Assembly: GCA_018263395.1 (NCBI GenBank)
Contig: JAANXF010000003.1
Span: 1 to 34,025 of the forward strand
DNA length: 34,025 nt
Direction: 5' to 3'
Origin: Methanonatronarchaeales archaeon
GTDB lineage: Archaea; Halobacteriota; Methanonatronarchaeia; JAANXF01
Under the pieces are notes generated by a model that had not been told where the DNA came from, ran no database searches, and was given only the letters and a program-made list of their open reading frames with translations. A program made the position numbers and the translations under genes. Within the stretch, counting starts at the first letter, position 1, and each line of letters opens with the position of its first letter. Below are positions 10,577 to 21,789 of the stretch, in pieces.

Positions 10577-11821
10577 GTGACCGAATGTTCTTTTTGCGGA
10601 AATCAAATTAGCAGCACCCTTCCTTATGTCTGTAACTTCTGTGACGAAAAACTCTGTGCGGATCATAGGTTGCCTGAGAATCACGATTGCATAAATCTCG
10701 ACGCCGTTAAAGGTCGATATTTCGACAAGAAAAAATTTCGATTCAAGCAGCCTGAAAATACTCCGGTAAAACACAAATCAAGCAAGAAGGTTCATAAAAA
10801 ATCAACCAGTAAAACAGGGGCTCGGAGCCAAAGGCCTGGAGGCAAGTCTTGGAAGATGCCTCTCCTAATTATAATAATATTAGTTGGAGCAATAGGTTAC
10901 GCGTACACCGGTGGTTACTTCGATTCTACGCTTGGATCACCTGCCATCTCTGACCCCGGTACATTGCCATCACCAACAAAAACTCCGATTCATTTTGATA
11001 CGGTGGATTTAGGAGTTGTAGCTGAAAATCCAGAGGAATTTCTTGATAACAGCATTGCCATTGAAGGAACCTTAGAAAAACGCCCTTTCGACCCGGATAC
11101 ACCTTACCAGCACATTTTGGTAGACGACACGGGAACAAGTGTAACGCTAAAACCGCATTCGTCATCTCTGCTAGAATTAGAGGGAGACTCCGTGACTGTG
11201 CGTGGAAGTATGTCAAAACAGCCCCTTCGCTCGGGAGGATACGAATACGTATTCGAAACGACGGAGCTCCTGAGACCAACTCCATCTCCATCTCCAACAC
11301 CTACGCCTACGCAAATTCCTGAGACAGAAACACCGCAATCAACAGATACCCCGGTGCCCACACATACACAGACAGAATCGGTGCAAGCACCTCGTTCGGT
11401 CGGGAATTTCGATGACAACAGGATTGAGGAAATGATTCACGAAGAAGTGAACCGTGCTCGGCAGGAACAAGGCCTCCACACCCTACAGTGGAGCCCCATG
11501 ATTCACTCCAACTCTGATAAGTGGAGCAAGGAGATGGCAAATAGTGACTACCTTTACCACGGTGGACTGGACACCCTTGAGTGTGGCACGATTAAAGGTG
11601 AGAACATAGCAAAGGCGTACGTGTACAAATCCCGCTACTCTTCTGGAGGGATAGCCGAATGGTACACAGAGGAAGAACTAGCCAAAACAATCGTAGATGG
11701 ATGGATGAACAGCGAAGGACATAGAAAAAACATCTTAAGGTCATCTTTCAGACGAGAAGGAATTGGGATATTTATAACGGAAGATGGAACTGTTTGGGCT
11801 ACGCAAGAGTTCTGCGGATAA
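10577..11821 (+). CDS. membrane-tethered CAP-domain protein with N-terminal AN1-type zinc finger and OB-like domain
   Basis: The 414-residue protein has four parts. Residues 4-38 form an AN1-like zinc finger (C4, C7, C19, C22, C27, H30, H36, C38). A Lys-rich linker leads to one membrane helix (about 94-112). An OB-fold-like beta domain follows at about 140-232 (EGTLEKR, HILVDDTG, VTVRGSM). After a Pro/Thr linker (235-270) comes a CAP/SCP-PR1 domain (about 280-414) with H328, GEN (341-343), GHRKNIL (381-387) and the final TQEFC. The expected topology is zinc finger inside, CAP domain outside. CAP domains bind lipids or sterols or act as secreted effectors; the archaeal role is unknown. The start is GTG 10577, since no ATG fits the zinc finger. 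GC content is lower than that of the flanks. Confidence 0.85.
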   Translation: MTECSFCGNQISSTLPYVCNFCDEKLCADHRLPENHDCINLDAVKGRYFDKKKFRFKQPENTPVKHKSSKKVHKKSTSKTGARSQRPGGKSWKMPLLIIIILVGAIGYAYTGGYFDSTLGSPAISDPGTLPSPTKTPIHFDTVDLGVVAENPEEFLDNSIAIEGTLEKRPFDPDTPYQHILVDDTGTSVTLKPHSSSLLELEGDSVTVRGSMSKQPLRSGGYEYVFETTELLRPTPSPSPTPTPTQIPETETPQSTDTPVPTHTQTESVQAPRSVGNFDDNRIEEMIHEEVNRARQEQGLHTLQWSPMIHSNSDKWSKEMANSDYLYHGGLDTLECGTIKGENIAKAYVYKSRYSSGGIAEWYTEEELAKTIVDGWMNSEGHRKNILRSSFRREGIGIFITEDGTVWATQEFCG

Positions 11822-18895: not shown

Positions 18896-19291
18896 ATGCG
18901 GGGAGAAGACCAGAGGGACGCTGTCCTGCTGGACACGAACGCCCTTATGGCAGTCGGGGCTCTCGGCATAGACATGTTCGATGAGCTGGGAAGGGTCGCG
19001 CCGGGGCTCGAACCCGTGGTGCCCACAGGAGTCGTCGAGGAGCTGAGGAGGATAGAAATCGAGGGCACCGCAACCGAGGCCAGGAACGCGTCAGTCGCAC
19101 TGGCGCTCGTGGAGGGCACCGCGCGGGTCTCGACGGAGGGCCGGGTGGACGACGCCCTGGTGGAGCTGGCCGAGGAACGGGGATGGGAGGTGCTGACGAA
19201 CGACGCGGAACTGATTAACCGCCTGAAGGTGAGGGGTCTGCCCGTAATCTACATAAGGCAGAAGAGCTACTTGCAGAGGAGTCTGGATTAG
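18896..19291 (+). CDS. PIN-domain protein, COG1412 (Fcf1-like/VapC9-like)
   Basis: The 131-residue PIN domain shows the acidic metal site: D in VLLDTNALM, E in VVEELRRI, and D in DDALVELAEERGWEVLTNDAELI. It ends with VIYIRQKSYLQR, the typical tail of archaeal COG1412 proteins. These are related to the ribosome-biogenesis nuclease Fcf1 and in many archaea sit beside eIF2-gamma and RpoE1, so a housekeeping RNA role is more likely than a toxin role. AGGAGAGG lies 5 nt before ATG 18896. It heads a dense operon; the pyrophosphatase starts 1 nt after its stop. eIF2-gamma, often next to it, is not in this window. Confidence 0.85.
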   Translation: MRGEDQRDAVLLDTNALMAVGALGIDMFDELGRVAPGLEPVVPTGVVEELRRIEIEGTATEARNASVALALVEGTARVSTEGRVDDALVELAEERGWEVLTNDAELINRLKVRGLPVIYIRQKSYLQRSLD

Positions 19292-19829: not shown

Positions 19830-20603
19830 GTGTACAGGAAGCTCAGATTGGTGGATTCGGTGAGAGTCCCCCCCGGCAGGTTCGGGGAGGAACTGAAGCC
19901 GGTCATCGCGGACGCCCTTCAGGCAAAGCTGGAGGGGCGCGTCGACAGGGACCTGGGAGTCTACGTGGCAGTGACCGACGTTTACCGGATAGGTGAGGGC
20001 AAAATAGTTCCGGGAGACGGCGGCGTCTACTACGAGGTCGAGTTCGACGCCGTTTCGTTCCTGCCGGAGGTAAACGAGATGAGCGAGGGGGAGATAGTGG
20101 AGATCGTCGAGTTTGGCGCCTTCGTGGGCGTCGGTCCCCTGGACGCGCTGCTCCACGTATCGCAGATAGCGGACGAGTACATATCGTACGATGAGAAGCA
20201 GTCCCGTCTAGTGGGCAAGGAGGGCGGCATCGCGCTGAGTGAGGGAGACGCCGTCAGGACCCGGATAGTAACTGTCTCCCTGAACGAGCGCAACCCCCGG
20301 GAGTCCAAGATAGGGATGACCATGAGGCAGCCCGCACTCGGAAAGGTCGAGGAGGTGTACCGCTCCGAGAAGATGGCCGAGAGGAGGGCGGAGTACCTCA
20401 GGCTGATGGAGGAGGAGCGTGCAGCGGAGGAGGCCGCCAAGGCCGAAGCGGAGGAGGCGAGGGCGGCCGAGCGGGTGGAGTGCCTCGAGTGCGGGGAGCT
20501 TTACAAGCAGATAACGGGCTCCCATCTCTCGACCCACGACATGACCGTGGAGGAGTACAGGGAGAAGCACGGGGAGGACGTTGCGCTGAGGGCTGTGGCA
20601 TGA
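19830..20603 (+). CDS. rpoE1: RNA polymerase subunit E' (Rpo7) with C-terminal MucR/Ros-type zinc finger
   Basis: Residues 1-80 form the N-terminal RNP-like domain that docks on the polymerase core, and 81-175 form the S1/OB RNA-binding domain (GAFVGVGPLDALLHVSQIAD). Together with subunit F this makes the stalk that helps open DNA and bind nascent RNA. The usual protein ends near residue 190. Here a Glu/Ala-rich coiled coil (about 190-215) leads to C218-x2-C221-G, H232-x3-H236 and THDMTVEEYREKHG. The latter is the Ros/MucR C2H2-type zinc-finger pattern of DNA-binding regulators. Start GTG 19830 directly follows the ppa stop; the spt4 ATG overlaps its TGA. Confidence 0.93.
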   Translation: MYRKLRLVDSVRVPPGRFGEELKPVIADALQAKLEGRVDRDLGVYVAVTDVYRIGEGKIVPGDGGVYYEVEFDAVSFLPEVNEMSEGEIVEIVEFGAFVGVGPLDALLHVSQIADEYISYDEKQSRLVGKEGGIALSEGDAVRTRIVTVSLNERNPRESKIGMTMRQPALGKVEEVYRSEKMAERRAEYLRLMEEERAAEEAAKAEAEEARAAERVECLECGELYKQITGSHLSTHDMTVEEYREKHGEDVALRAVA

Positions 20604-20785
20604 AGAAGTCCGCGTGCAGGGAGTGCCACCGGGTGATAGACGGCGACGCCTGCCCGATACACGGAAAGGGTACCCTTACCGAGGACTGGAGGGGTTACGC
20701 CGTGATACTGGACCCCGGGGAGTCGGAGATAGCGAAAAAAATGAAAATCGACACGCCGGGAAAGTACGCTCTGAAGGTAAGGTAG
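20600..20785 (+). CDS. spt4: transcription elongation factor Spt4 (RpoE'')
   Basis: The 61-residue protein has a zinc site and the conserved tail of archaeal Spt4: LTEDWRGYAVILDPGESEIA, then a final PGKYALKVR. With Spt5 it forms the elongation clamp on RNA polymerase. The zinc ligands are C6, C9, C18 and probably H21 (motif CPIHG), where homologues normally have a fourth Cys. ATG 20600 overlaps the rpoE1 stop (ATGA), so expression is coupled. Confidence 0.93.
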   Translation: MKKSACRECHRVIDGDACPIHGKGTLTEDWRGYAVILDPGESEIAKKMKIDTPGKYALKVR

Positions 20786-20786
20786 C

Positions 20787-21314
20787 TTGACCCGGGTCCT
20801 GCCGGACGAACTGCGGGATGAACTCAGACGTCCGATCGGCAGATTGGTAAGTGGCGATTCACCGGAACGAGTGGCCGAGGAGGCGTGGCCGGAGAACGGC
20901 CACGTCATCGCGGTGGGGGACATCGTGACGTACCACCTGCTGGAGGCGGGGCACATCCCGGACGTCAGCATCATAGACGACCGCTCGATGCGGGAAAACA
21001 CCGGTGAGGCCGTCAGAAGAGAGGTGCGCCGCGGCTTCCGGAGGTCGGTTAAGGCCAAAAACCCGCCCGGCCACCTCACCGACGAACTAGTCGAGGCGGT
21101 CGAGGCCGCAGTCGAGGAGGGCGACGGCTTCCAGGTCGTGGTCGACGGTGAGGAGGACCTGGCCGTCATACCGGCGGTGCGATTCGCGGAGGTAGGCTCC
21201 ACGGTCCTGTACGGCCAGCCCTCCGAGGGCGTCGTGGTCGTGGAAGTCACCGGGAAGAGGAAAAGAGAGATAAAGCGCCTCGTCGATAGGATGGAGGTAC
21301 TCGATGGAAATTGA
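20787..21314 (+). CDS. GTP-dependent dephospho-CoA kinase (DUF359)
   Basis: The 175-residue protein belongs to the archaeal DUF359 family, shown in Thermococcus to phosphorylate dephospho-CoA with GTP, the last step of CoA synthesis. Family blocks seen are the N-terminal RRPIGRLVSG, VIAVGDIVTYHLLEAGHIPD, SIIDDRSMR, and VVVDGEEDLAVIPAV followed by GSTVLYGQPSEGVVVV, which holds the conserved YGQP. The start is TTG 20787, 1 nt after the spt4 stop; its 3' end overlaps rps24e by 11 nt. The position between spt4 and rps24e is the standard archaeal order. Confidence 0.93.
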   Translation: MTRVLPDELRDELRRPIGRLVSGDSPERVAEEAWPENGHVIAVGDIVTYHLLEAGHIPDVSIIDDRSMRENTGEAVRREVRRGFRRSVKAKNPPGHLTDELVEAVEAAVEEGDGFQVVVDGEEDLAVIPAVRFAEVGSTVLYGQPSEGVVVVEVTGKRKREIKRLVDRMEVLDGN

Positions 21315-21789
21315 GGTAACTGGAGAGTGGGACAACGCGCTCTTGGGAAGGAGGCAGCTGGACTTCAGCGTGGAGCACCCGGGCGACGCCACTCCGGGCA
21401 GGACGGACGTCAGGAAGAAGCTGGCGGCCATGAAGGACGCCGACGAGAACCTCGTCATAGTGAAGGGTATGGACACCGACTTCGGGAGGGCGGTCACCGA
21501 TGGAAGCGTCAGCGTGTACTCGTCAAGGGACAGGATGGTCGAGGTCGAGTCCCGCCACCTCCTGGACCGAAATCTCGGGGAGGACCAGGGGACAGCCTCG
21601 ACCGGCCGTGAGGAACGCGCCGGTGAGGCGGGAGAACCCGAGGAGGAGGCTCCAGAGCCGGAAGCAGGAGGGGAAGGGTCAGAGTCCGAGGAGGAACCCG
21701 TGGACGAAAACGAGGCTGAAGGTGAAGATGAATCAGATGCAGGGGCCGAGGAGGCCGACGAAGACCCCGGTGAGGGAGGCTCGGAGTGA
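21304..21789 (+). CDS. rps24e: ribosomal protein eS24 with long acidic tail
   Basis: Residues 1-95 are a normal eS24: [19 protein letters not shown], then [14 protein letters not shown], and the closing strand with VYSSRDRM. The protein then continues for about 65 residues of almost pure Glu/Asp/Gly/Ala/Pro with no order or motif. Typical archaeal eS24 is about 100 residues. Nothing suggests a fused domain. ATG 21304 lies inside the DPCK 3' end, and the eS27 GTG overlaps its stop. Confidence 0.93.

Follow-up and report, generated by a model that had tools for sequence, protein, structure and literature searches.

The window analysed here, a 34,025-nucleotide stretch of DNA from a Methanonatronarchaeales archaeon (contig JAANXF010000003.1), harbours a complete rpo7 (rpoE1) gene at 19830-20603 (+), which begins with a GTG start codon and encodes 257 amino acids in an open frame. 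The full-length NCBIfam equivalog for RpoE1, NF006333, matches residues 1-185 (E 5e-73), the SHS2_Rpb7-N (PF03876) and S1 (PF00575) domains both score above the Pfam cut-offs, and 1go3 is recovered as a fold match (E 8e-18). By homology to 1go3 and others, the window Rpo7 would be expected to assemble with Rpo4 into the polymerase stalk. As a preliminary description of this DNA had claimed, the frame runs past the S1 domain into a helix and a zinc finger, an arrangement that is also found in two relatives (Table 1).

Table 1. Features of the rpo7 locus, with window coordinates and supporting evidence
Feature	Coordinates	Strand	Evidence
PIN-domain protein, conserved upstream neighbour	18896..19291	+	PIN_9 E 1.3e-26; near rpo7 in two class relatives too
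Rpo7/RpoE1 body, residues 1-172, SHS2 + S1	19830..20345	+	NF006333, PF03876, PF00575, 1go3 fold match
Glu/Ala/Arg-rich linker, residues 173-215	20346..20474	+	AlphaFold2 model, linker composition
Ros/MucR-type C2H2 zinc finger, residues 216-251	20475..20582	+	PF05443, invariant ligands, pLDDT, 2jsp profile match
spt4 (RpoE2)	20600..20785	+	Pfam Spt4 E 1.2e-11
DUF359 protein, conserved neighbour	20787..21314	+	PF04019 E 5e-39; in two class relatives too

The ROS_MUCR profile (PF05443) matches Rpo7 residues 195-248 with 39.4 bits against a cut-off of 25.4 (E 7.1e-10), and a search with the tail alone, a check that had been proposed at the outset, retrieves the same family (E 9.5e-11). Together with the pattern C218-x2-C221-G ... 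H232-x3-H236, which is followed by HDMTVEEYREKHG, this bears out the earlier assignment to the Ros/MucR C2H2 family; residues Cys218, Cys221, His232 and His236 are the likely zinc ligands. The finger also matches Ros (2jsp) in profile comparison (E 1.4e-10). In the AlphaFold2 model, residues 173-213 are predicted to form a single helix of 41 residues, while the finger itself (214-250) is confidently modelled as a compact domain of short strands and two helices, with a mean pLDDT above 90 and most residues above that value. A Foldseek search with the model of this very small domain returned no significant match.

On its 5’ side rpo7 adjoins ppa without a gap, and on its 3’ side its TGA codon (20601-20603) overlaps the ATG of spt4 at 20600. 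The latter had been put forward as an indication that the longer frame is the real one. Downstream of spt4 lie the genes for the DUF359 protein, eS24, eS31 and then a Kae1-Bud32 fusion. The eS24 protein (window 21304-21789) carries past its domain an acidic C-terminal tail of about 65 residues (95-161), which is finger-free. Elsewhere in the window (10577-11821), a 414-amino-acid protein combines an N-terminal AN1-type zinc finger with a C-terminal CAP domain.

Three genomes make up the class sample: that of the window, Candidatus Methanohalarchaeum thermophilum HMET1 and archaeon SCG-AAA382B04, the latter two being assigned by the genome tool to the class of the window genome, which it calls Methanonatronarchaeia, but to another family. 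In a tree of uS3 bodies, the three genomes group together (94/90) as sister to the haloarchaea (94/94); the window genome might also lie near the proposed Ordosarchaeia (PMC10873845). Both relatives encode the same full-length Rpo7 fusion, with 52-55% identity to the window protein, and share with the window the gene order PIN - rpo7 - spt4 - DUF359. The fusion is thus neither due to chance nor to misassembly, since two independently sequenced genomes of the class carry it in the same gene order. Their linkers are shorter than that of the window and differ in composition, and the linker helix may therefore not be conserved.

Outside the class, the archaeal Rpo7 proteins examined (best 80 of 471 loci) end at 185-232 residues and are finger-free, although they resemble the window protein in their SHS2 and S1 domains and in the adjoining spt4 (PDB 1go3, 8cro). 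Among these best 80 of 471 named loci, the finger is present in two, those of HMET1 and SCG-AAA382B04, and the pattern C-x2-C...H-x3-6-H is absent from the other 78. Likewise, among 60 relatives the Rpo7 match runs past S1 into the finger in the three class members only, with no such extension in the other 57 genomes. A tail common to archaeal Rpo7 is ruled out by the lack of a finger elsewhere among the best 80 of 471 loci, and the suggestion that the arrangement is unusual for RpoE1 is upheld. One contig titled Candidatus Nitrosotalea contains a Halobacteriota-type Rpo7, and its genome groups with Halobacteriota, so its title looks wrong; a finger search routed through this genome stayed inside the phylum and largely duplicates the one across 394 Halobacteriota genomes described below. 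The main text of the proteomics paper on M. thermophilum AMET1 does not mention the tails, and no description of Rpo7 or uS3 tails of this kind was found in the open-access literature.

When the class genomes are searched with Rpo7, each of them presents a second matching place, namely the ribosomal protein uS3, encoded in the uL22-uS3-uL29 operon. In all three, uS3 ends in a C-terminal finger preceded by an acidic linker; the uS3 fingers score 30.0-39.7 bits against PF05443 (cut-off 25.4), and the ligands C-x2-C ... H-x3-H are invariant in all six Rpo7 and uS3 fingers. No third credible finger protein was found with PF05443 at E<=10 in the three genomes, whose completeness amounts to 78% for the window genome, 95% for HMET1 and 93% for SCG-AAA382B04. 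A profile built from the six fingers again retrieved Rpo7 and uS3 alone in each genome at E<=10, the next matches falling below 14 bits. These genome-wide searches at E<=10 rule out a general-purpose finger distributed across many proteins. The finger is absent from uS3 in 27 other relatives, whose tails are acidic or lysine-rich, and a tail common to uS3 is thereby ruled out. Across 394 Halobacteriota genomes, matches to PF05443 above the cut-off are confined to the three class genomes and six haloarchaeal GvpC-type proteins. The fusion, the pairing of Rpo7 and uS3 and its exclusivity in the three genomes are therefore near certain.

The presence of the finger on uS3 changes how its role is to be read. 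The preliminary description had suggested that it would be a built-in regulatory or recruitment device of the polymerase; its position on the stalk stands, but because the same finger is found on uS3, the likely function moves from a polymerase regulator to a role shared by polymerase and ribosome. A finger that binds DNA at the stalk and regulates or recruits transcription, as first envisaged, would be in keeping with its ROS_MUCR membership and its match to Ros 2jsp. It appears highly improbable, as the core of the finger is acidic and its sole other carrier is a ribosomal protein, where binding to DNA would make little sense.

The closest archaeal finger found is the C-terminus of haloarchaeal GvpC, the outer protein of the gas vesicle. 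One scanned haloarchaeal protein combines GvpC repeats (E 1.2e-42) with a ROS_MUCR match (1.3e-6), and the window finger is 54-58% identical to those of annotated GvpC proteins from Halobacterium and Haloplanus plasmids. As in Rpo7 and uS3, the GvpC finger is C-terminal and follows an acidic stretch, which in this case is extremely acidic; in contrast to them, GvpC has its own Halo_GVPC repeats (PF05465), which are absent from the Rpo7 and uS3 proteins of the class. To our knowledge, the gas-vesicle surface has no link to nucleic acids, and the finger on GvpC therefore places the module on the surface of a particle without such a known link. No GvpC was found in the three class genomes in a search run without a positive control. 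Fingers of this type also occur on viral contigs, in MucR-like and endonuclease-like proteins, while none was found in the annotated phage collection; a viral origin was not retained, as no viral finger is closer than that of GvpC or informative on origin.

Ros/MucR fingers with known function are DNA binders. The regulators of this family (PF05443, 2jsp) share with the present fingers the C-x2-C and H-x3-H ligands, the EYRE helix and an above-cut-off profile match, but they are free-standing and contain basic residues, whereas the fingers described here are tails of Rpo7 and uS3 with neutral to acidic cores. The net charge of the core is -6 in the window Rpo7 and -5 in the window uS3, and ranges from 0 to -6 in the six copies, as opposed to +2 to +3 in MucR fingers; moreover, the basic pair that precedes the HL motif in MucR is replaced by small residues. 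Halophile proteins are generally acidic, which confounds the comparison of charges, and the acidity therefore weighs against binding to nucleic acids without excluding it. With that caveat, the acidic cores and the kinship with GvpC seem to favour binding to protein over binding to nucleic acids. Of the earlier view of a DNA- or RNA-binding finger on a flexible arm, the family, the rarity and the attachment to the stalk by an arm hold, while the nucleic-acid-binding role is disfavoured by the acidic core, the missing basic pair and the GvpC relationship.

The two fingers could nonetheless act as clamps with RNA as their shared ligand, one gripping the transcript where it exits the polymerase stalk and the other gripping that mRNA on its way into the ribosome. 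The S1 domain of Rpo7 and the KH domain of uS3 both face RNA (PMC8116511), and the family consists of nucleic-acid binders. The charge and the loss of the basic pair speak against such clamps, as do the likewise acidic linkers and the occurrence of the closest archaeal relative on GvpC, and we consider them unlikely.

Within each genome the two fingers resemble each other closely, with identities between the Rpo7 and uS3 cores (34 residues) of 88% in the window, 74% in HMET1 and 79% in SCG-AAA382B04, while orthologous cores are 50-71% identical across genomes. Sites can be split by genome, when both proteins share one residue in each genome that differs between genomes, or by gene; the three pairwise comparisons, which are not independent of each other, give ratios of 6:0, 7:0 and 3:0 in favour of the genome. 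The cross-identity of the fingers between HMET1 and SCG-AAA382B04 is also 79%, as high as within a genome, and the by-genome pattern is thus strong when the two families are compared but modest inside one of them. The finger is too short for a resolved tree.

Such a grouping of sites by genome is what gene conversion predicts, and the fingers could be the trace of a mobile module that was duplicated and converted, leaving tails with little or separate function. The modularity of these fingers, found in MucR regulators as well as in endonuclease-like viral proteins, would agree with this. Codon agreement in the window pair, by contrast, is close to random expectation (22 of 32 identical residues, where codon usage would predict 19.6; P 0.21, in a test of little power), so that recent conversion as the whole explanation is unsupported by this weak test. 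Furthermore, all three genomes retain the finger on Rpo7 as well as on uS3 while the bodies of these proteins have come to be 59-70% identical between the two families, and the zinc ligands of the finger are invariant. As far as a weak test can tell, the likeness of the window pair appears to agree more with maintenance of the protein sequence than with recent copying. Older gene conversion would still be able to produce matching sites, but we judge a mere conversion trace to be quite improbable.

A common ligand for the Rpo7 and uS3 fingers is probable. We propose that they constitute a paired docking module that couples transcription and translation, an explanation which, including its version with a shared partner, is plausible even if it falls a little short of an even chance. 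The archaeal stalk binds nascent RNA and has Rpo7 at its tip, while uS3 and uS4, where mRNA enters the ribosome, form its mRNA helicase (PMC8116511). The Rpo7 finger would accordingly be located on its linker at the stalk tip, beside the emerging transcript, and that of uS3 on its own linker at the ribosomal mRNA entrance. Both would be protein-interaction domains with a ligand in common, whether they bind each other or a single shared partner. Their docking would join the RNA-exit side of the polymerase to the side of the 30S subunit where mRNA enters, holding the polymerase and the leading ribosome close and thereby coupling transcription to translation.

The more specific forms of this proposal are less assured. 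It is possible but doubtful that the fingers, by contact with each other or through a bridging protein, tether the stalk to uS3 as a dedicated and genetically encoded device, and a direct connection of polymerase and ribosome is viewed with about the same reserve. If real, such a tether would represent an archaeal expressome linkage unlike the bacterial NusG-uS10 or NusA bridges. The Rpo7 S1 domain, together with archaeal NusA, has been suggested to correspond to bacterial NusA, and in Mycoplasma pneumoniae NusA an extra C-terminal extension contacts ribosomal proteins and reaches the ribosome (PMC8116511); the tether would be comparable to this extension. What this case shares with the bacterial expressomes (NusG-uS10 and the C-terminal extension of NusA in M. 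pneumoniae) is an extension specific to the lineage, carried by an S1-domain protein that is bound to polymerase, which could stretch as far as the 30S subunit. Unlike them, the present case involves a matching folded domain on both machines, with a putative contact between the two.

Several points count against the docking module. The functionally characterised fingers of the Ros/MucR family bind DNA, the class sample comprises three genomes, and two fingers binding the RNA of one transcript would explain the pairing too. Gene conversion, addressed here by a codon test of low power, could yield matching sites without a common ligand. Finally, GvpC shows the finger in a place where coupling plays no part. 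In this last regard, the fingers could instead recruit a shared factor for large particles, such as a chaperone, a protease adaptor or a positioning or quality-control protein, with no link between polymerase and ribosome and with GvpC recruiting a homologous factor to gas vesicles. Such a factor would account for an acidic linker and a C-terminal finger on three unrelated assemblies, RNA polymerase, ribosome and gas vesicle. No candidate partner emerged, though, and no genome with both GvpC and the Rpo7/uS3 pair was found in a search without a positive control; this alternative likewise seems unlikely.

Physical coupling of transcription and translation in archaea has so far been discussed by analogy with NusG and NusA (PMC8116511) and from pull-downs in Haloferax, where ribosomal proteins co-purify with polymerase subunits (PMC8576121). 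In the three genomes, one domain is found on exactly two proteins, situated where RNA leaves the polymerase and where mRNA enters the ribosome, and its two copies change together. With two short peptides and one culturable genus, the paired fingers allow the question of coupling to be put to the test, and they point to residues for mutation.

With regard to gas vesicles, the C-terminus of haloarchaeal GvpC is a Ros/MucR-type C2H2 finger (VECLVCGEYYQAITEPHLQTHDMT), and this protein thus gains a previously unremarked C-terminal zinc finger; the paper that describes its acidic stretch makes no mention of zinc (PMC3878110). A similar finger also occurs outside GvpC, in a haloarchaeal frame of 113 amino acids (G028:C1:2801367-2801486), to which two short frames with weak finger scores are related.
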